From Kineococcus siccus (GTDB lineage Bacteria > Actinomycetota > Actinomycetes > Actinomycetales > Kineococcaceae): a stretch of 35,581 nucleotides of DNA. The DNA lies in NCBI RefSeq assembly GCF_009906795.1, contig NZ_JAAALN010000016.1, positions 1-35,581 of the forward strand. Reading direction: 5' to 3'. The stretch's first letter is position 1. Each line of letters starts with the position of its first letter. The notes beneath the pieces were generated by a model. It was not told the DNA's origin, made no database searches, and was given only the letters and a program-made list of their open reading frames with translations. Both the position numbers and the translations under genes were made by a program. This document shows positions 7,325 to 16,344 of this stretch, piece after piece.

Positions 7325-8311
7325 TCAGGCGGTAGAGACTTCGAGCACCGGTCGTCCCCGGCCCGCGGCCGCGGCCTCCGCGTCCACACCGCCGCAGGAG
7401 TTGATGGCTGCTTCCCCGGCTTGATCCAGGAAGCCGGTCAGGTCGCCGAGCGGGGCTCCCCACGTCTCGATGCGGTCACCGATGCCGAGGCGGGTCCCGT
7501 CGGTCAAGACGATCTGCTCAGTCGCGTCATCCCACGCCGAGCCCTGCGGCCAGACCAGGAGCGCCTCGTCCATGACCAAGCAGCCGTCCTCGAGTCCGAC
7601 GGTTCCGGTGCGCGCCCAGGCCTCGCGCACCAAGCCCTCGGGGTGGCCGGCGATGGCGATGACCGGGTCAGGTGTTGCCGGGACGATGGCGGGGACGGAG
7701 TACGAGGGCCACTCGTCGGAGCGGACGATGCGCCAGGCGTCGGTGTCGTCGTTGCGCACGAGGATCACCGACCCGGAGAAGGGGGCCTTGCCGATGACCA
7801 GGGCAGGGTCGTCGTCATAGGAGTAGGAGAGCGGGACGGCAACGGCTTGCCGCCAGCCCTGCGTGACGGTGTCTGTTGTCGGGTAGGACCGGGGTACACC
7901 GATCCTGACGTCGTTGACCCGCAGCTTGTCAGCGTTCCAGCGGATCAGCCACGTCGGGTCTTGGACCCAGTAGTCGTTGTGCGCTGCAGCGTCGTCTCCG
8001 GCCATCCGGGCCTCGATGTAGCCGCGGACTACCTGCTCGGGTGATCCGCTGGCGTCGGGCGCGGCTACGGTCGTCGTGGTGGTGGCCGTCCACAGCCACG
8101 ACATACCGCCTGCTGCACCAACCCCTCCGACGGTGGCCACCACCGCCAGGCCGAGAGCCACCGGTAGTGCTCGAGTGCGCAGCCGGCGCCGACGTCCGCG
8201 AGCCTTGATGTGATCCAAGTTCCAGGTGGGCGGCGGACTGGGCCGGTCACGCAGTGCGGTCCTCAAGGTGCTCGAGACGTCGGCGCTGGTGTCGCTGTCG
8301 TCGTTGGTCAT
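7325..8311 (-). CDS. Single-pass membrane protein, putative anti-sigma factor
   Basis: The 328-residue protein has an acidic cytoplasmic start, a basic stretch (KARGRRRRLRTR), one transmembrane helix at about residues 48-70 and a Thr/Ala linker followed by a long extracytoplasmic domain. Its start overlaps the stop of the ECF sigma gene (bases 8308-8311), so the two are translationally coupled. That arrangement and topology are typical of ECF anti-sigma partners. No zinc-binding HxxxCxxC motif is present, so it is not a ZAS-type anti-sigma factor and the role is inferred from context. The outer domain has one conserved-looking Cys pair (EDGC, NSCGG). Confidence 0.75.
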   Translation of the reverse strand: MTNDDSDTSADVSSTLRTALRDRPSPPPTWNLDHIKARGRRRRLRTRALPVALGLAVVATVGGVGAAGGMSWLWTATTTTTVAAPDASGSPEQVVRGYIEARMAGDDAAAHNDYWVQDPTWLIRWNADKLRVNDVRIGVPRSYPTTDTVTQGWRQAVAVPLSYSYDDDPALVIGKAPFSGSVILVRNDDTDAWRIVRSDEWPSYSVPAIVPATPDPVIAIAGHPEGLVREAWARTGTVGLEDGCLVMDEALLVWPQGSAWDDATEQIVLTDGTRLGIGDRIETWGAPLGDLTGFLDQAGEAAINSCGGVDAEAAAAGRGRPVLEVSTA

Positions 8312-8886
8312 CGATGTGCTCCGTCCGGGAAGTGCTGGTCAGCGAGGAACGTGGTGTCCTGCCCAGTCGGCGGTGAGGCGCTGAGGTGCTGCTGCAGGAA
8401 GCGGCGGGCGTGGTGGGCCTGGCTCTTCACCGTGCCCTCAGAGCAGTGCAGGAGGTCAGCGACGTCACTGACCGGCAGGTCCTCCAGGAAGCGCAGGACC
8501 GCGACGGCACGCTGGCGCGGTGGCAGCAGACGCAGCAGATCCATGGCGTCCAGGCGCTCCACACTGGACCCGGTCAGCTCCACTGCAGACGGGTGCGCCG
8601 ACGTCGCTCCAGCGGCGGTGTCGTCGAGGATGGCGGTCTCGTGGCGGCGCCAGGCGCGACGGTCCTCGGAGATCAGCCGGCGGACCAGGGTGGTGCGGGC
8701 GTAGGCGTACTCCTCACCACCGCGGCGCACCCGTGGCCAAGCGGCGTAGACGCGCTCCATGGTGTCCTGCACGACGTCGTCGCTGTGGTGCCAGTCGTGG
8801 CACCAGGCGTACGCCAGCTGTCGCAGCCGCGGCATCGCGGTGCCGGCGAAGGCGTCGAACGCCGCACCGTCGATGTCTTTGCTCAT
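8308..8886 (-). CDS. ECF sigma factor, SigE family (module 1)
   Basis: This 192-residue protein is an RNA polymerase sigma factor of the extracytoplasmic-function class. Region 2 is visible at about residues 9-55 (FAGTAMPRLRQLAYAWCHD, DDVVQDTMERVYAAWPRV). Region 4, with its helix-turn-helix, is at about 115-165 (LPPRQRAVAVLRFLEDLP, ADLLHCSEGTVKSQAHHAR). It would direct transcription in response to a cell-envelope signal passed by the coupled membrane protein downstream. The ATG at 8886 follows a G-rich ribosome site. A possible self-recognised promoter lies upstream at 8906-8935. Confidence 0.92.
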   Translation of the reverse strand: MSKDIDGAAFDAFAGTAMPRLRQLAYAWCHDWHHSDDVVQDTMERVYAAWPRVRRGGEEYAYARTTLVRRLISEDRRAWRRHETAILDDTAAGATSAHPSAVELTGSSVERLDAMDLLRLLPPRQRAVAVLRFLEDLPVSDVADLLHCSEGTVKSQAHHARRFLQQHLSASPPTGQDTTFLADQHFPDGAHR

Positions 8887-8905
8887 GACCCCACCCCCTC
8901 ACAGC

Positions 8906-8935
8906 TTGTACGCCGCAGCCCGGCGTGGAGGTTGC
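8906..8935 (-). promoter_or_regulatory. Candidate ECF-type promoter of sigma module 1
   Basis: On the minus strand GCAACC (8935-8930) is separated by 17 bases from CGTACAA (8912-8906), about 20 bases before the sigma start. CAAC-type -35 and CGT-type -10 elements are typical of ECF promoters, and a very similar pair precedes sigma module 3. Autoregulation is inferred. Confidence 0.45.
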
Positions 8936-9092
8936 ATCGACGTGCTGTGCCGGAGGAGGCCGTGGCAGCGTCGCAGCGAGCGGGTCCAAGAAGCGCTGAT
9001 TTGGTTAGCCACCTCGCGCGACCAGCGGCAGGAGTAGCCCTGTGTCGAGCAGCCCCGCGAGAACGGCCTGCAGCGCCGCACGCTGATCGCGA

Positions 9093-9125
9093 CATGACCG
9101 TGCGTTCCGCACCGCGGCGTGACCG
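9093..9125. repeat. Dispersed intergenic repeat, copy A
   Basis: This is a 25-bp unit (9093-9117) followed by the start of another (CGTGACCG). The core GTGCGTTCCGCAC is a perfect 5-bp inverted repeat around three bases. Related units occur at 12618-12680, 16998-17059, 17450-17511 and 18867-18893, always between genes. Confidence 0.55.
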
Positions 9126-9133
9126 AGAGATCG

Positions 9134-9714
9134 TCAGTGGTGCTCGACCACCGGCCGCAGGTGTCCTCGGCCGGGGCCCGCGGGTGCGCCCTCGTCGACC
9201 AAGCGCAGCAGGTCAGGATGGGCGGCCAGACGTCGCCGGGCCCGGTGCAGACGTACCCGAGCCGTCGTGGCGGTGATTCCCATGACGCGGGCCGCGTCAG
9301 CGGTGCTCAGCTGCTCCCAGGCGGTCAGCGTGATCAGCTCCCGGTCCGGCTCATTCACCGCCTCCAACGCGGCACGCACGACGTCCACCACCCTGGACGA
9401 GAGCGACGAAGAGGGGCCTTGGCCCTCGGTTCGTCGTCGTGGTCGGCCAGCTCCCGGTGCAGGTTCTCGACCCCGGCCTGCTGGCGCCGGTGCTGGGCCA
9501 GGAGCCGGCGTGCAGCACCGAACAGCCACAACCGTTCCCTGCCCTCGGGTAAGTCGCTCCGTCGTCGCCAGGCGATGAGGTAGACCTCGGCGAGCAGGTC
9601 AGCGGCGTCGGCCGGGGCGGTTCGCCGGGTCAGGTAGGCCAGGACGTCGACGCGGGTGTCGCGGAAGAGCTGCTCGAACCGTTCGCCGTCGTCGATGGTG
9701 CCTGCTCGACTCAT
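9134..9714 (-). pseudogene. ECF sigma factor with frameshift (module 2)
   Basis: The ATG at 9714 begins a normal ECF region 2 (ERFEQLFRDTRVDVLAYLTRR, AADLLAEVYLIAWRRRSDLPEGRERLWLFGAARRLLAQHRR). The frame is then lost at about 9411-9425, in a run of G/C around the codons for EPRAKAP. Region 4 continues in the neighbouring frame (VVRAALEAVNEPDRELITLTAWEQLS, AARVMGITATTARVRLHRARRRL) to the stop at 9134. One lost base (or a minus-one shift) would join the halves into a roughly 190-residue sigma factor. Mutation, sequencing error and ribosomal frameshifting cannot be told apart here, though no classic slippery heptamer was obvious. Its start overlaps the stop of the upstream membrane gene. Confidence 0.8.
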
Positions 9715-10628
9715 CGGGTCGAGCCCTGACCGATGATCGTCGCTGCCGTGGTCACCGCAGCAGTGATCGCTGGCGTCATCGCCGGGCTGCACCGGTCGCT
9801 GGCGGCGACCGCGCCCAGTACCGCAGCGCGGTCGCCAGCGGCCGCGGCGGTGGCGATGGCTGGGACCCATCCGAAGCGGGTGCCCGTCTCGGCTCCGGCG
9901 TCCGCGCGTGCGCCGCTGGCGCTGGGGGTCGGGTCGACGTCGGTGACCGCGGACCAGGTCAGCGACGCGGTGAGGGTGCTCGTGGCGGTCCGTCGAGCGG
10001 AGACGTCGACGGTGCTATGGCCGGTGGTGTCGGCGGCGATCCACGCATCGGCCCAGGTGCAGATCGCGTTCTGGGCGACCTGGGCCCGCAAGGCGCTGAC
10101 GGTGATCTGCGCGTCAGTTCCGGGTGCGAGGGAGCCGGCGCGGAACTGGGCTTGGCGCTGGGCCTGGTGGTCGGCCGAGAAGGGGATGTCGGCGGTGAGC
10201 TGGGCGGCGACGTCGAGGTAGTCACTGCCGTCCTGGCGCAAGACCTCACCGGGTCCGGCGGCTGTCGCCTCCCAGCCGCTGGTGTGCTGCCCGGTGTGGG
10301 CGGCCAGGTAGGTGGCGGCCGCCGCGGTGCCGGCACTGGCCACGGCGAGGGTCAAGGTGATGGCGCTGACGCGGGCGAGACGGCGGCGGTGACGGGCGCG
10401 GACCTGCTGAGCGGCCACGACGTCCAGGCGGCGGGCGCGGCGCGTGGCGAGCTCGCTGTCGTGGTGGTCAACGCGGGTAGCGGTGGCACCGGAGGTGTCG
10501 GACAAGGTGGTGGTGAGGGTGCGCCAGGTGTCGGTGAACACCTGCTCCTGCTGGTGTTGGGCCAGCGGCCGCGACCCGGCCTCTCGCAGGAGGTCGTCGA
10601 GGGTGATCTCACCGTCGTGGGGGTGCAT
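9711..10628 (-). CDS. Single-pass membrane protein, putative anti-sigma factor (module 2)
   Basis: This 305-residue protein has a cytoplasmic N-terminus of about 85 residues rich in His and Arg, a transmembrane helix at about 88-110 (ITLTLAVASAGTAAAATYLAA) and an Ala/Thr-rich outer domain. The stop overlaps the start of the frameshifted ECF gene (ATGA at 9711-9714). Here the putative anti-sigma gene precedes the sigma gene, the reverse of the other three modules. A 5' segment LDDLLREAGSRPL could be the sigma-contacting part, but no known anti-sigma domain is recognised. The ATG at 10628 is the natural start. Confidence 0.7.
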   Translation of the reverse strand: MHPHDGEITLDDLLREAGSRPLAQHQQEQVFTDTWRTLTTTLSDTSGATATRVDHHDSELATRRARRLDVVAAQQVRARHRRRLARVSAITLTLAVASAGTAAAATYLAAHTGQHTSGWEATAAGPGEVLRQDGSDYLDVAAQLTADIPFSADHQAQRQAQFRAGSLAPGTDAQITVSALRAQVAQNAICTWADAWIAADTTGHSTVDVSARRTATSTLTASLTWSAVTDVDPTPSASGARADAGAETGTRFGWVPAIATAAAAGDRAAVLGAVAASDRCSPAMTPAITAAVTTAATIIGQGSTR

Positions 10629-10656
10629 GGCTGGTCTCCGGTCCGGGCAGCTCCTG

Positions 10657-10668
10657 GTGAGCGCTCAC
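10657..10668. promoter_or_regulatory. Perfect 12-bp palindrome, candidate operator
   Basis: GTGAGCGCTCAC is perfectly self-complementary and lies about 30 bases upstream of the minus-strand start at 10628. Flanking CTG and CCAG extend the symmetry with a one-base offset. It could be a regulator site or a hairpin in the leader; no regulator is identified. Confidence 0.35.
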
Positions 10669-10950
10669 ACCAGTACGTGTCACCACCGTTACAGAGGCGA
10701 CGCTGCGGCTGCCAGAGACTCACTGGCCAGCGATGTGACCGCGCGTTCGCGACCAGCGTCATGTCCGCGCGGCCAGCACTCAGCCGTCGTCCCGACCGCG
10801 AAGTCGGACCGGGATCGTGTGACGACGAGGCACGTCCGCTCACCTATGGGTCTGGCGTAAGGCCCCGGAAGCCGGTCCTCACTCCACGTCCGCTGCCGTC
10901 TGGCTGGTGCGCAGGGCCTTCAGGGAAAAGATCATCGGTCGATGGCCTTG

Positions 10951-10979
10951 ACAACTTTTTCCTCCAGCGGGGCGTCGTA
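10951..10979 (+). promoter_or_regulatory. Candidate ECF-type promoter of sigma module 3
   Basis: ACAACT (10951-10956) is followed after 16 bases by CGTCGTA (10973-10979), 22 bases before the GTG start at 11002. The pair resembles the GCAACC/CGTACAA pair before module 1. A TTGACA also overlaps the upstream element, so a housekeeping promoter is possible, but no TATAAT-like -10 follows at the right distance. Confidence 0.45.
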
Positions 10980-11001
10980 GGGGTGTGAACAGGCTGATGA
11001 G

Positions 11002-11586
11002 GTGAACCTCGTTGATCGAACCGACGCCTTCAGCGCGTGGGCGGCGGACGCGGCGCCGCGCCTGGTCCGCATCGCGCGACTGCTGACGGGCGATGTCCAC
11101 GCTGGAGAGGACCTCACGCAGGAGGTCTTGGAGAAGATCTACGCCCGCTGGACCCACCTCGAGGATCCTGACGCATACGCGCGGAGGGCACTGGCCAATG
11201 CAGTCACCTCGCGCTGGCGGCGACGATCCCGCAGACCTGAGGTGTTGTTGGAGCTCGACCGTGACGCCGCTACCGCGCACCCCCGTCACGATCCCCACCC
11301 CGGCACCGAGCAGCGCCTGGACCTGATGGCTGAACTGGCGCGCCTTCCCTCACGTCAGCGCGCGGTCGTCGTTCTGCGTTACCTCGACGACTTGAGTGAA
11401 CGAGACGTCGCTGAGCTGCTCGACATCAGCGTCGGCACCGTGAAGAGCCAGAGCGCTCGGGGGCTGACACGGCTGCGTGAGCGCTGGGCAGCACCGACCG
11501 GCACGACACCGATCGCCACCGGCGAGACCCGGACCGACCCGAGCCCTCGGGGCGAGCCCGCCTACCGAAGGGGAGGCACCACCTGA
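11002..11586 (+). CDS. ECF sigma factor, SigE family (module 3)
   Basis: This 194-residue ECF sigma factor has region 2 at about residues 10-60 (FSAWAADAAPRLVRIARLLTGD, GEDLTQEVLEKIYARW). Region 4 is at about 112-160 (LPSRQRAVVVLRYLDDLS, AELLDISVGTVKSQSARGLTRLRER). A proline/glycine-rich tail of about 30 residues follows. The start is GTG at 11002, with AGG about eight bases upstream. Its TGA overlaps the ATG of the downstream membrane gene (bases 11584-11588), so the pair is coupled. This is the only plus-strand module of the four. Confidence 0.92.
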   Translation: MNLVDRTDAFSAWAADAAPRLVRIARLLTGDVHAGEDLTQEVLEKIYARWTHLEDPDAYARRALANAVTSRWRRRSRRPEVLLELDRDAATAHPRHDPHPGTEQRLDLMAELARLPSRQRAVVVLRYLDDLSERDVAELLDISVGTVKSQSARGLTRLRERWAAPTGTTPIATGETRTDPSPRGEPAYRRGGTT

Positions 11587-12491
11587 TGCTAAGCGACACG
11601 ACCCACGAGAACGATCTGCGTCGGCGGTTGCAGAAGGCGGCTGGACCCGTTGAGGGGTCAGCCGCTCTGGTGGCGCGCTCCGTCCACGGTGGGCGCCGTC
11701 GGCTGCGACGCCGACAGGGGGCCGCCGGAGCTAGCGCAGTGGCGGTGCTCGCTACGGCGCTGGTCGTCGCCACCCACCTTCCAGGCAGCGGAACAAGCCT
11801 CAACACGGTCGCTGCTTCTCCCACGTCGACCCCAGCGCCCTCGTCACCATCCACGCCACCCCCCGAGGAGACCGTCCTCGACGCCACGCTCAGCGCCCAG
11901 GCGCTAGCCGAGCTGACGCGAGCCAACGACGCAGCCCCCAGCACTCAGGGGAGAGCTGACGCAGTGCGGGCAGCTGCGCTCACGCCAGAGGTCAATGCGG
12001 TCTTAGCTGAAGCGCTGCCCGGCTTTCCGGCGGCTACTGGTGCCACCTCCATTACCGCCGACGGCACGCCGGTGGGGTGGAACTTCACCGCCACCGACTC
12101 CGACGCCGTCGACGCGCAGGGACGACCTGTGGATGTGTGGGTGTACATCAGCGTGGTACGTCCGAGCGCAGCTCTCAACGCCGACACCGTGGTGTGCGCA
12201 GGGGGTGGCTGGGTGGCGTGTCAGGAACGCACGTTGGGCGACGGGACAGTGCTGCGCAGCGGGCTGGTGCGCCACGAGATGCAGACCGACCACGCGGTCG
12301 TCACCGCGACCACGCCGTTCGCCTTCGCCGTCTTGCCTGACGGCCGGTTGGTCGATGCCCGATCTAGCGTGAACTGGGGTCCCGACGCGATCGAAGGGGA
12401 CTTCACCCTGGCAACGGGCCACCCGTTGACCGTCGAGGCACTCGAGGAACTCGTCACCTCACCTCAACTGGAGCAGCTGCCGGTCCCGTGA
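11586..12491 (+). CDS. Single-pass membrane protein, putative anti-sigma factor (module 3)
   Basis: The 301-residue product has a basic juxtamembrane stretch (GGRRRLRRRQGAAG), a transmembrane helix at about residues 47-65 (ASAVAVLATALVVATHL) and a Pro/Ser/Thr linker (ASPTSTPAPSSPSTPPP). An outer domain of about 200 residues follows, with two cysteines around a Gly-Trp motif (VVCAGGGWVACQER). The TGATG overlap with the ECF gene and the topology support an anti-sigma or signal-sensing role. No zinc-binding anti-sigma motif is present, and the ligand is unknown. Confidence 0.75.
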   Translation: MLSDTTHENDLRRRLQKAAGPVEGSAALVARSVHGGRRRLRRRQGAAGASAVAVLATALVVATHLPGSGTSLNTVAASPTSTPAPSSPSTPPPEETVLDATLSAQALAELTRANDAAPSTQGRADAVRAAALTPEVNAVLAEALPGFPAATGATSITADGTPVGWNFTATDSDAVDAQGRPVDVWVYISVVRPSAALNADTVVCAGGGWVACQERTLGDGTVLRSGLVRHEMQTDHAVVTATTPFAFAVLPDGRLVDARSSVNWGPDAIEGDFTLATGHPLTVEALEELVTSPQLEQLPVP

Positions 12492-12617
12492 GATCCGGGT
12501 CGCGGACCTGCCGCGGACCTGGGGCGAGCTGTCGGCCTCCACGGTGAGGCCTACACGTCACGAGATCGGATCGCTTGGTCGAGGAGCATCCACCCCTCGC
12601 GCTGGACGTCACTGGTG

Positions 12618-12680
12618 CGTCACGACCCGCGCCCGGCTTGCGGCGTGACCACGCCCGTCCGCGCTCTGCGGCATGAGCGG
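12618..12680. repeat. Dispersed intergenic repeat, copy E (two to three diverged units)
   Basis: Units at 12618-12643, 12644-12671 and the start of a third at 12672 share the C-R-T-G/C-A-C-G start and the TGCGG end of the 25-bp intergenic repeat. They are more diverged than copies A to C. They lie in the 254-bp gap between 12491 and 12746. Confidence 0.35.
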
Positions 12681-12745
12681 GTGCCTCTGGTCTGGCGCGA
12701 CCAACGCAGAAGGCACCTGTCGTGAGCGCTGGCACAGCTCTGGCG

Positions 12746-13117
12746 TCAGGAGCCGTCAGTAGGGGTAAGCGTCCGCCGCAAGGTCGCCATGACTTCATCG
12801 AGAACGTCATCCAGCTGAGTGAGGTCACACCACTCATACCATGCGCCGGATCGCCTACGCGGCTGGTGAGCCGTGGCCTCGGTGCTGATGGCGATGTCCT
12901 CGTCCAGCCCGTCAAACCAGACGTGCACGGGTTCATTGTCGGCTGGCCCGTGCACGACGGTGCCCCAGCCATGCACGGCTTCCTTGCCGTTCTCGGACTC
13001 CCAGAAGCGGTCCTGATGGCGGTAGTCGGTGATGCCAAGGTCATCGAGCAGCTGCTCGAGGCGTTGACGCAGATGCTCCTGGGCGGCGGGAGGTACTGGT
13101 GGCTGTAGGTCCGGCAT
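12746..13117 (-). CDS. Hypothetical protein, 123 aa
   Basis: This soluble acidic protein has an N-terminal coiled or helical segment (AAQEHLRQRLEQLLDDLGI), an aromatic middle (DRFWESENGKEAVHGWGTVVHG, EPVHVWFDGLDEDI) and a C-terminal helix (LDDVLDEVMATLRRTL). I do not recognise a family. The ATG at 13117 is preceded by GGATGG, and an in-frame stop lies four codons upstream, which fixes the maximum length. It stands between the module 3 and module 4 genes. Confidence 0.65.
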   Translation of the reverse strand: MPDLQPPVPPAAQEHLRQRLEQLLDDLGITDYRHQDRFWESENGKEAVHGWGTVVHGPADNEPVHVWFDGLDEDIAISTEATAHQPRRRSGAWYEWCDLTQLDDVLDEVMATLRRTLTPTDGS

Positions 13118-13313
13118 CCATCCACGCTAGCCAGAGGATGCTGCTCCGATGGGGTGCAGCCGCGGATGCCGCTGTGCATCTTGCAGACATCGGCAAGGTC
13201 GCATAGGCGCCAGCCGTCGTGATGGCGCACGACCAGCGGGATGACCGCGACGTCGTCTGCAGTGCGGTAGGTCTGCGCATCGCGTCGTCTGGGGTGAAGG
13301 TGGCCTGGACCAC

Positions 13314-14195
13314 TCAGAGAGGTTGTCCAGAGACGTCGCGCAGCACAGTGCCATCCCGGAGGGTGACGTCGAGGGTGTACGTGGGCACCAGGTGGGTGGT
13401 GCGGCACTCGCCCTCGCAGTTGTTCGCCGTGCCCGGAGAGGCCGGCGTGGTGGTCCTGCGCATTGCACGACCTGGCCACCAAGCGGCGTAGTGACCGTCC
13501 TGGACCGTGGCTTGCGCAGTCAGGCCACCCTGGGCATGGACGGTGACCGCTGCGACGTTCTCGCCTACGAGCCCGTCCAGGACCGAGAGTTCATCGCCGG
13601 GGGTCGTCTGCTCGTAGATCCCGCCGTCGCTGATGGCGTCGGCGGCCGGGCGTGCCCCCCCACCGCCGCCGCCGGCGACGAACGTCGCCTCGCCTCCCGG
13701 TGGGAGGTCCACCAGGCACGTCAGCGTCATGACGGGGCTCGATCCTTCGTCCAACACCACGAGAACGAGGTCCCCTCGCCGCTCGACCAGCCGGGTCCGC
13801 AACCGCTCGACGCGGTAGCCGGACGTCAAGGTCTCGTCCTCGACGCACGCCTGGCGTGCGGCGGCGGCGTCGGCGGGGCTCGCCGCAGTGGGTACCGGCT
13901 CCCACGAGTCGGCGTACGCCGTTCCCCCGCCGAGCACCTGGGAGGTGTTGACGCCCAGCACCGCCACGCCGGCGGCCAGGGCGAGGACACCCACGCGCCG
14001 CGCGGTGCGAGGGCGCCGGGGCAGGAGCGGATCGCGGCCGACCCGGCCGGGGGGCGTGCGGGGCTGGGTCACGATGCTGTCCAGACCCGCTCGGGCACGG
14101 ACGCGCGCGGCTTGATCCAGGGGGGTCGGGGGAGCCGCGTCCAGGGCTCTCAGCGCGGCGTCGATCTCGGCGTCCGGGCGGTGGGTCGGACTCAT
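13314..14195 (-). CDS. Single-pass membrane protein, putative anti-sigma factor (module 4)
   Basis: This 293-residue protein has a cytoplasmic domain of about 65 residues (TDAALRALDAA-like helix, PLDQAARVRARAGLDSIV) and a transmembrane helix at about 68-90 (VGVLALAAGVAVLGVNTSQVL). The extracytoplasmic domain contains a seven-glycine-type run (VAGGGGGGARP) and paired cysteines (NNCEGEC). Its start overlaps the stop of the ECF gene 3' fragment at 14192-14195. The N-terminal layout resembles the membrane partners found beside ECF genes in actinobacteria. The sigma partner is split by an insertion sequence, so this gene may no longer have a working partner or promoter. Confidence 0.75.
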   Translation of the reverse strand: MSPTHRPDAEIDAALRALDAAPPTPLDQAARVRARAGLDSIVTQPRTPPGRVGRDPLLPRRPRTARRVGVLALAAGVAVLGVNTSQVLGGGTAYADSWEPVPTAASPADAAAARQACVEDETLTSGYRVERLRTRLVERRGDLVLVVLDEGSSPVMTLTCLVDLPPGGEATFVAGGGGGGARPAADAISDGGIYEQTTPGDELSVLDGLVGENVAAVTVHAQGGLTAQATVQDGHYAAWWPGRAMRRTTTPASPGTANNCEGECRTTHLVPTYTLDVTLRDGTVLRDVSGQPL

Positions 14196-14698
14196 CGGGT
14201 GGCCTCCAACGTGTCGTCGGTGAGGGGGTGGCGCTTCGGTGCCGCGGCCGGCCTCGGAGCGTCGGTGTCGTCCAGGTGCGCGCGTAGGGCTCGTCGGGCG
14301 CGCATGAGGCGCAACCGGTAGGCCGTGGCGGTGGTGCTGAGTACCAGTGCGGCCTGGGCGGAGGTCAGGTCCTCGAGGACGGTGAGGGCGAGGACCTCCA
14401 TCTCACCGGGGTCGAGGCGCTGCCACGCGGTGGTGAGGTCGAGGGAGGCGATGACGGCGTCGTGGGGGTCGCTCGTCGCCTCGCCTTGATCGGCCAGCCG
14501 GACGGTGAGGGCTTGGCGTCGGTCGCTGCTCCGGCGTGAGGTCAGCAGGCAGTTGCGGGCGATGCCGAACACCCAGGCGCGTTGAGCGTCGCGGCGTCGT
14601 GGGGCGTCTTCGAAGCGTCGCCAGGCGACCAAGAGGGCGTCGGCGACCACGTCCTCGGCGCTGCTGGTTGCCTCGCTCGGTAGGCGACGGTTCACGAA
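14192..14698 (-). pseudogene. ECF sigma factor, 3' fragment split by an insertion sequence (module 4)
   Basis: From TTC-GTG at 14698-14693 the frame reads FVNRRLPSEATSSAEDVVADALLVAWRR and so on. It covers the end of region 2 and a complete region 4 (LDPGEMEVLALTVLEDLTSAQAALVLSTTATAYRLRLMRARRALRAHL). The first helix of region 2 is missing, because the IS3-family element begins at 14699. The missing 28 codons are at 16261-16344. A GTG at 14695 could still start a shortened 167-residue protein, but it lacks region 2.1. The stop overlaps the anti-sigma gene. Confidence 0.88.
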
Positions 14699-14775
14699 CC
14701 CTCCCTGCCAGACTCAGGTGAGACACGCAGTACAGATCCACTCACTGTCGTAGGGCGAGAAGCGAGACACCTCCT

Positions 14776-15210
14776 GTGACCCTGACACTGTCCGATGTGG
14801 ACAGCACCGACCGCCCCGACCCGACCGAGCCCGGCGAGTCGACTGAGGCAGGCCCCCGTGCCGAGCGACCCCGCCGCCGCTCGTTCACCGCCGAGTACAA
14901 GGCCCGGATCCTGGCCGAGTACGACGCCGCACCCCGCGGCCAACGCGGGGCGATCCTGCGCCGTGAAGGCTTGTACGACACCCACCTCATCCACTGGCGC
15001 AAAGCCGCCGCCGCTGGCGCCGCCGACGCCTTGAGCCCTCGGAGAGCTGATCCTCGGGACAAGGAGATCGCTGAACTGCGCGCCCGCGCCGAACGTGCCG
15101 AAGCCGATCTGGACCGGACCCGGACGGCGTTGGACATCGTCGGAAAAGCGCACGAGCTCTTGGAGAAACTCTCCGAGAGCACGGGCACACCGAAGCCGCC
15201 GCGGAGCTGA
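14776..15210 (+). CDS. IS3-family transposase OrfA
   Basis: This 144-residue protein has the N-terminal helix-turn-helix of IS3 OrfA (SFTAEYKARILAEYDAA, QRGAILRREGLYDTHLIHWRKA) and a C-terminal coiled coil or leucine-zipper region (KEIAELRARAERAEADLDRTRTALD). It binds the element ends. The start is GTG at 14776; no strong ribosome site is seen. The orfB frame is minus one relative to this frame and is open from at least 15171, before the orfA stop, so an OrfAB fusion could form by minus-one frameshifting. Confidence 0.9.
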   Translation: MTLTLSDVDSTDRPDPTEPGESTEAGPRAERPRRRSFTAEYKARILAEYDAAPRGQRGAILRREGLYDTHLIHWRKAAAAGAADALSPRRADPRDKEIAELRARAERAEADLDRTRTALDIVGKAHELLEKLSESTGTPKPPRS

Positions 15211-15239
15211 ACAACCCCGCCGTCAACGACCTAGCGACG

Positions 15240-16223
15240 GTGCTGTGCGGCCGTCTCGGCGGGACCCGCCGCGCTTGCGGCCTACTGGGCCGCGCCCGCG
15301 CATCGCACTACCGCGCAACCGCAGGACCCCGGCTGGGACCCGTTCGTCCCCGACCACGGCCGGCCAGCGCCTTGAGCCCCACTGAGGAGCACCACGTCCT
15401 GGACGTGGTGACCTCGCCGCGGTTCGTTGACAAGTCCGTAGCCCAGATCTGGGCGGTCCTACTGGATGAGGGGACGTACCTGTGCTCGCAGTCGACGATG
15501 CACCGCCTGTTGCGGCGCAACGGTATAGCCGGTGACCGTAGGAATCAGGCCACGCATCCGGCGAAGGTGAAACCAGAACTCGTCGCGGTCAGAGTCGGCC
15601 AGGTCTGGAGCTGGGACATCACGAAGTTGAGAGGTCCAGCGCGCGGCGTCTACTTCGAGTTGTACGTCGTGATCGACATCTACTCCCGCTACGTCGTCGC
15701 CTGGCGCGTCGAGGCCACCGAAGACGCCGCCCTGGCTCAGGAGATGCTGACCGAGGCGATGGGACGACATCAGATCCCCGACGTCGTCCACGCCGACCGG
15801 GGCACGTCGATGACGTCCAAACCGGTCGCGCAGCTGCTGGTGGACCTGGGGGTGACGCGGTCGCATTCACGACCGCGGGTGTCGAACGACAACCCGTACA
15901 GCGAGGCGCAGTTCAAGACATTGAAGTACGCCCCGGCGTTCCCAGACCGGTTCGAGACGCTCGAGCAGGCCCGGAAGTTCTGCGAGGTGTTCTTCGGCCA
16001 CTACAACTACGTGCACCGGCATTCCGGGATCGCGCTGCACACCCCGGCATCGGTGCACTACGGCACCGCCAGACAAGTCCGAGCCGCACGGCAGGAGACT
16101 CTGGACGCGGCCTACGCCGCGCACCCTGAACGGTTCAGCGGCCGCCGCCCCGAACCGCCCAAGCTGCCCACCGAGGCGTGGATCAACCAGCCCTCGAGGG
16201 AGGCCCAGATTCAGAGCGCGTAA
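15240..16223 (+). CDS. IS3-family transposase OrfB (DDE integrase)
   Basis: The 327-residue catalytic subunit has an HTH_21-like segment (SPRFVDKSVAQIWAVLLDEG, CSQSTMHRLLRRNGI) followed by the rve integrase core. The catalytic triad is Asp126 (WSWDITKL), Asp186 (VHADRGTS) and Glu222 (NDNPYSEAQFKTLKY), with the D-35-E spacing of the family. The C-terminal HSGIALHTPASVHYG motif is typical of IS3 transposases. The GTG at 15240 is the first start in the frame, but the frame is open upstream and the natural product is probably an OrfAB fusion. Confidence 0.92.
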   Translation: MLCGRLGGTRRACGLLGRARASHYRATAGPRLGPVRPRPRPASALSPTEEHHVLDVVTSPRFVDKSVAQIWAVLLDEGTYLCSQSTMHRLLRRNGIAGDRRNQATHPAKVKPELVAVRVGQVWSWDITKLRGPARGVYFELYVVIDIYSRYVVAWRVEATEDAALAQEMLTEAMGRHQIPDVVHADRGTSMTSKPVAQLLVDLGVTRSHSRPRVSNDNPYSEAQFKTLKYAPAFPDRFETLEQARKFCEVFFGHYNYVHRHSGIALHTPASVHYGTARQVRAARQETLDAAYAAHPERFSGRRPEPPKLPTEAWINQPSREAQIQSA

Positions 16224-16260
16224 GCAGTCCGTGTCTCACCGAGCTTGACAGGTTCCGGAA

Positions 16261-16344
16261 GCGCAAGACGTCGGCGTACACGTCGGTGTACAACGCATGG
16301 AAACGCTGCTCGTCCGCAACATCGGGCAGCGGTGGTGGGCTCAC
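16261..16344 (-). pseudogene. ECF sigma factor, 5' fragment on the far side of the insertion sequence (module 4)
   Basis: The minus strand from GTG 16344 reads MSPPPLPDVADEQRFHALYT and then DVYADVLR, 28 codons that match the opening of ECF region 2.1. GAGG lies five bases before the GTG. The next codon TTC (16260-16258) is the target duplication and also begins the fragment at 14698. Joining the two gives DVLR-F-VNRRLP in one frame and a 196-residue protein. This fragment alone runs into the insertion sequence and is not functional. Confidence 0.85.

Follow-up and report, generated by a model that had tools for sequence, protein, structure and literature searches.

An IS3-type insertion sequence in an ECF sigma factor gene of a Kineococcus-like actinobacterium

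Analysis of the window, a stretch of 35,581 nucleotides that forms one whole contig of a draft genome (4.58 Mb, 495 contigs), indicates that simple transposition of an IS3-type element split an ECF sigma factor gene in a Kineococcus-like actinobacterium (probability about 95%). The element comprises 1,559 bp and sits in a minus-strand sigma gene, and its ends as well as the 3-bp target duplication are fixed to the base. Disruption of accessory regulators by insertion sequences is routine and the insertion itself is an ordinary event. It is useful as a clean, base-exact case which settles the ends and the target duplication for a group of actinobacterial IS3-type elements in which TG...CA is not terminal. 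Furthermore, it points to a conserved, unnamed actinobacterial pair consisting of an ECF sigma factor and a membrane protein.

The split sigma gene and its intact orthologues

The 5' piece of the gene (16261..16344, minus strand) comprises a GTG start, read as Met, and codons 1-28, and encodes VSPPPLPDVADEQRFHALYTDVYADVLR. It aligns with residues 1-27 of an intact orthologue from Quadrisphaera. The 3' piece (14192..14698, minus strand) holds codons 29-196 and the stop, with a complete region 4 and the larger part of region 2, and matches the profiles PF04542 and PF08281, both above the cut-offs. The PF04542 match begins at profile position 20; the fragment lacks the first region-2 helix, as a sequence-only reading of this DNA had stated. 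Between the two pieces lie the element and a duplicated GAA, found at 14696..14698 (left copy) and at 16258..16260 (right copy), where it reads TTC and represents Phe29 in the direction of the gene. The duplication is exactly 3 bp long; the neighbouring bases differ on both sides, so that no extension is possible. Removal of positions 14699-16260, that is the element and one GAA, results in a single frame of 196 codons in which DVLR-F-VNRRLP is joined. The rejoined protein has regions 2 and 4 only and about 200 amino acids, as is characteristic of ECF sigma factors, and it is the 5' piece that brings the missing start of region 2. The sequence-only reading had given the coordinates, the 28-codon segment and the GAA pair correctly, and the ECF protein of 196 residues which it predicted is borne out by the frame and by the orthologue alignments.

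That reading had also proposed to look for an uninterrupted gene in relatives. With only the 3' piece as query we found one in Quadrisphaera granulorum (L037:4917-5504), which encodes 195 amino acids from a GTG start (VSPPQTPDDAEQRF...ADVLRFVRRR) and has the N-terminal part in the same frame and position. This intact protein was compared by tblastn with the raw window, without use of the proposed join, and it matches in exactly the two pieces of the split gene. The longer match covers residues 28-195 (14698-14195; E 9e-73, 70.5%), the shorter one residues 1-28 (16344-16258; E 8e-8, 76%), and the Phe codon of the duplicated target is present in both. Such a two-piece match is to be regarded as far beyond chance. 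At least 16 actinobacterial relatives align over the junction without extra residues. One could argue from the GTG at 14695 that the 167-aa frame is a short but complete sigma gene and the 28-codon match a separate gene start or a chance similarity. This is hardly credible, as the 5' piece reaches an E value of 8e-8 by itself and the N-terminal part occurs in this frame and position in all intact orthologues, which refute the short gene.

The Quadrisphaera sigma-partner pair (L037:4917-6394) resembles the one in the window, with about 70% identity for the sigma factor, 54% for the partner and the same ATGA overlap. It differs in that the sigma gene is uninterrupted and that a glycoside-hydrolase-like long ORF, absent from the window, lies upstream. 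Identity to the Quadrisphaera protein is similar for the 5' piece (78% of 27 aligned residues) and the 3' piece (75% of 162), and because of this similarity neither piece can be called visibly decayed. The insertion had been described as recent. The perfect duplication, the halves without visible decay and the open transposase frames make this plausible.

Within the genus the sigma gene is patchily distributed and occurs in three of eleven Kineococcus genomes. Orthologues with 53-61% identity, accompanied by the partner gene, were present in only two of the other ten genomes, and therefore the regulator is accessory. A conspecific genome with an empty site and the same flanks was not found among the eleven genomes of the genus. 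The own genome contains no close paralogue of the split gene, the best match showing 40% identity.

The inserted element and its ends

The insertion sequence occupies 14699..16257 on the plus strand and has the ends CCCTCCCTGCCA.../...TTGACAGGTTCCG, which other copies share, their 3-bp duplications lying outside. Both terminal inverted repeats are imperfect. In the left one (14699..14727, plus strand) 7 bp lie outside the TG, while the right one (16230..16257, minus strand) contains CGGAACCTGTCAAG, which is conserved in relatives. OrfA (14776..15210, plus strand, 144 aa) represents the helix-turn-helix part of the transposase (PF01527, E 3e-7) and OrfB (15240..16223, plus strand, 327 aa from a GTG) the DDE (rve) part (PF00665, E 3e-21). 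The OrfB frame is open from 15075 and thereby overlaps OrfA in the -1 register; an A-run at 15144 is a possible OrfA/OrfB slip site, at which frameshifting would presumably take place.

OrfB scores 172.4 bits against the IS3 model of NCBIfam (NF033516, cut-off 160), which supports the earlier assignment to the IS3 family. The IS481 family was rejected (105.9 bits, cut-off 224). A DDE OrfB, a helix-turn-helix OrfA with OrfB in the -1 register, and inverted repeats with a short duplication are all present, as in IS3-family elements such as IS2 and IS911, which have the OrfA/OrfB organization and the copy-out/paste-in route. The 3-bp target duplication and the size of 1.56 kb likewise resemble these elements, and duplications of about 2-5 bp are usual in the family. 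The difference lies at the ends, where the element carries 7 further bp on each side (CCCTCCC and GGTTCCG), so that TG...CA is not terminal. The consensus is not strict and the left end of IS2 departs from it too. IS3 membership stands on the transposase, terminal TG...CA being only a consensus, and the non-terminal position can be taken as a small departure from the norm of the family.

Only one copy of the element was found in the own genome. The closest relative found is located in a second genome from the genus (G009), with 95% identity over 1,553 bp and a GGA/GGA duplication. Two further genomes harbour two copies each, all with the ends CCCT... and ...CCG: the near-identical copies of G161 show GGG/GGG and CTT/CTT at their flanks, those of G215 GTT/GTT and ACG/ACG, the right end in G215 being placed where its two copies cease to agree. 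In total, five copies show 3-bp duplications outside the shared ends. In several further genomes the element stops at the same base on the right, with ...TTCCG or a sequence close to it. Two plasmid copies from Microbacterium have the same ends and no evident target duplication; a near-identical element was not found on plasmids. Comparison with other copies had been proposed together with the ends, and the positions 14699 and 16257 agree with these copies as well as with the sigma orthologues.

A TG...CA at 14706-16250, 7 bp inward, would fit the CA-3' consensus of IS3-family ends (PMC3299598), and the outer 7 bp per side would then belong to the target gene. We give this next to no weight, because these 7 bp are common to copies at unrelated sites and the 3-bp duplications lie beyond them, and because a sigma gene with 14 bases more would be out of frame, these bases having no counterpart in the orthologues. 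TG...CA as the true ends is ruled out by the reading frame and by the copy pairs of G161 and G215, and the ends stay at 14699 and 16257.

The 95% identical copy in G009 (C1:397554-400632) at first sight has a differing right end. It has the same left end and outer right end at a different insertion site, and differs by a nested element in its right repeat. This nested element belongs to the IS110 family (PF01548, E 2e-33) and explains the difference, since the outer TTCCG end lies unchanged beyond it. In both larger copies of this genome (L140:1054-4132 and L141) the IS110-family element is located between TTGACA and the outer GGTTCCG of the right terminal repeat. This suggests that this IS110-family element has the IS3-type ends as its target; alternatively, the nested unit may have moved whole, the two larger copies being 90.5% identical over 3.1 kb.

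By eye, a perfect TTGACA pointing outward was seen at the right end (window 16245-16257, read together with 14699-14705). If the two ends were joined in a circle with 3 bp between them, the left-end TG would follow 17 bp on, but no good -10 hexamer lies there.

Consequences for the sigma factor

The OrfAB transposase would have inserted the element by the copy-out/paste-in route of the family, with a stagger of 3 bp. The frame of the 5' piece enters the element and reaches a stop after 24 codons; upstream of the 3' piece, an in-frame stop lies inside the element at a distance of six codons. Because both half-frames meet stops in the element, the native sigma protein cannot be made. A working sigma factor would thus no longer be produced, as the 3' piece has neither the start nor the first helix of region 2. 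These features argue strongly for a loss of sigma function. The earlier description as a knock-out is therefore well supported, as the stops close both half-frames soon inside the element. The downstream membrane partner stays open and would no longer be translationally coupled to the sigma gene; its promoter would probably be lost too.

It is improbable, though less so than the alternatives mentioned above, that the regulator was altered and not abolished. At the junction (GGGAGGGTTCGTG) the GGGAGGG of the element end lies just before the GTG at 14695 and could serve as ribosome-binding site for a shortened sigma factor, which would keep region 2.2 to region 4. However, such a protein would be without the first region-2 helix, the frame is shut by the stop six codons upstream, and an outward promoter of the sigma-70 type was not found, although actinobacterial promoters may be missed by this search.

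Neighbouring ECF genes and the membrane partner

Four ECF sigma genes are located within about 8 kb (cluster at window 7325-14195): 8308-8886 (minus strand), 9134-9870 (minus strand, broken), 11002-11586 (plus strand) and the split one. Three of the four are directly followed by a gene for a single-pass membrane protein (7325-8311, 11586-12491 and 13314-14195). A similar ECF cluster is present in K. rubinsiae C54. In the second broken gene (9134-9870) the two regions are in different frames, region 2 in that of 9355-9870 and region 4 in that of 9134-9529, as would be expected from a shift by one base near a C run, or from a sequencing error.

The partner gene of the split sigma gene (13314..14195, minus strand) is intact, and its product is a membrane protein of 293 amino acids with a single pass. 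Its start overlaps the sigma stop (ATGA, -3 offset), and the same overlap was present in 15 of 15 relatives examined. Members of the family have a conserved inner motif (LRxLDxA, followed by R, L and I), a single membrane helix and an outer domain rich in beta structure. Searches of Pfam and NCBIfam gave no domain match and no recognisable anti-sigma domain, and no match was obtained among PDB sequences. Fold searches, which barely probed the inner part, yielded no hit at E 0.001, and no Z score exceeded 6.4. Weak matches to the CU044_5270 family (NCBIfam NF038083) were obtained for nine of 16 partner homologues (best E 4e-6), while for the protein of the window no match within the limit of 0.1 was obtained. 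The partner can therefore not be assigned to a known anti-sigma factor. Conserved gene order and overlap together with the topology make the earlier label of an anti-sigma gene plausible. For the earlier label of an envelope-stress regulator we see no support, as neither a stimulus nor a target could be inferred.

With respect to known systems, the likeness of the homologues to CU044_5270 leads to an uncharacterised family, for which no paper was found. Class I anti-sigma domains comprise on average 101 amino acids and four helices (PMC7406223). In the partner, a structural model of low confidence places only two helices in the first 43 residues, at 8-43. We tentatively consider that the partner may represent a group of ECF regulators not described so far, in which a single membrane pass is combined with a very short inner part of two helices and the start always overlaps the sigma gene by ATGA; the window would then represent a natural strain in which the regulator was kept and the sigma factor lost. 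If so, the partner would in its layout resemble class II anti-sigma factors, for example CnrY, more closely than those of class I.
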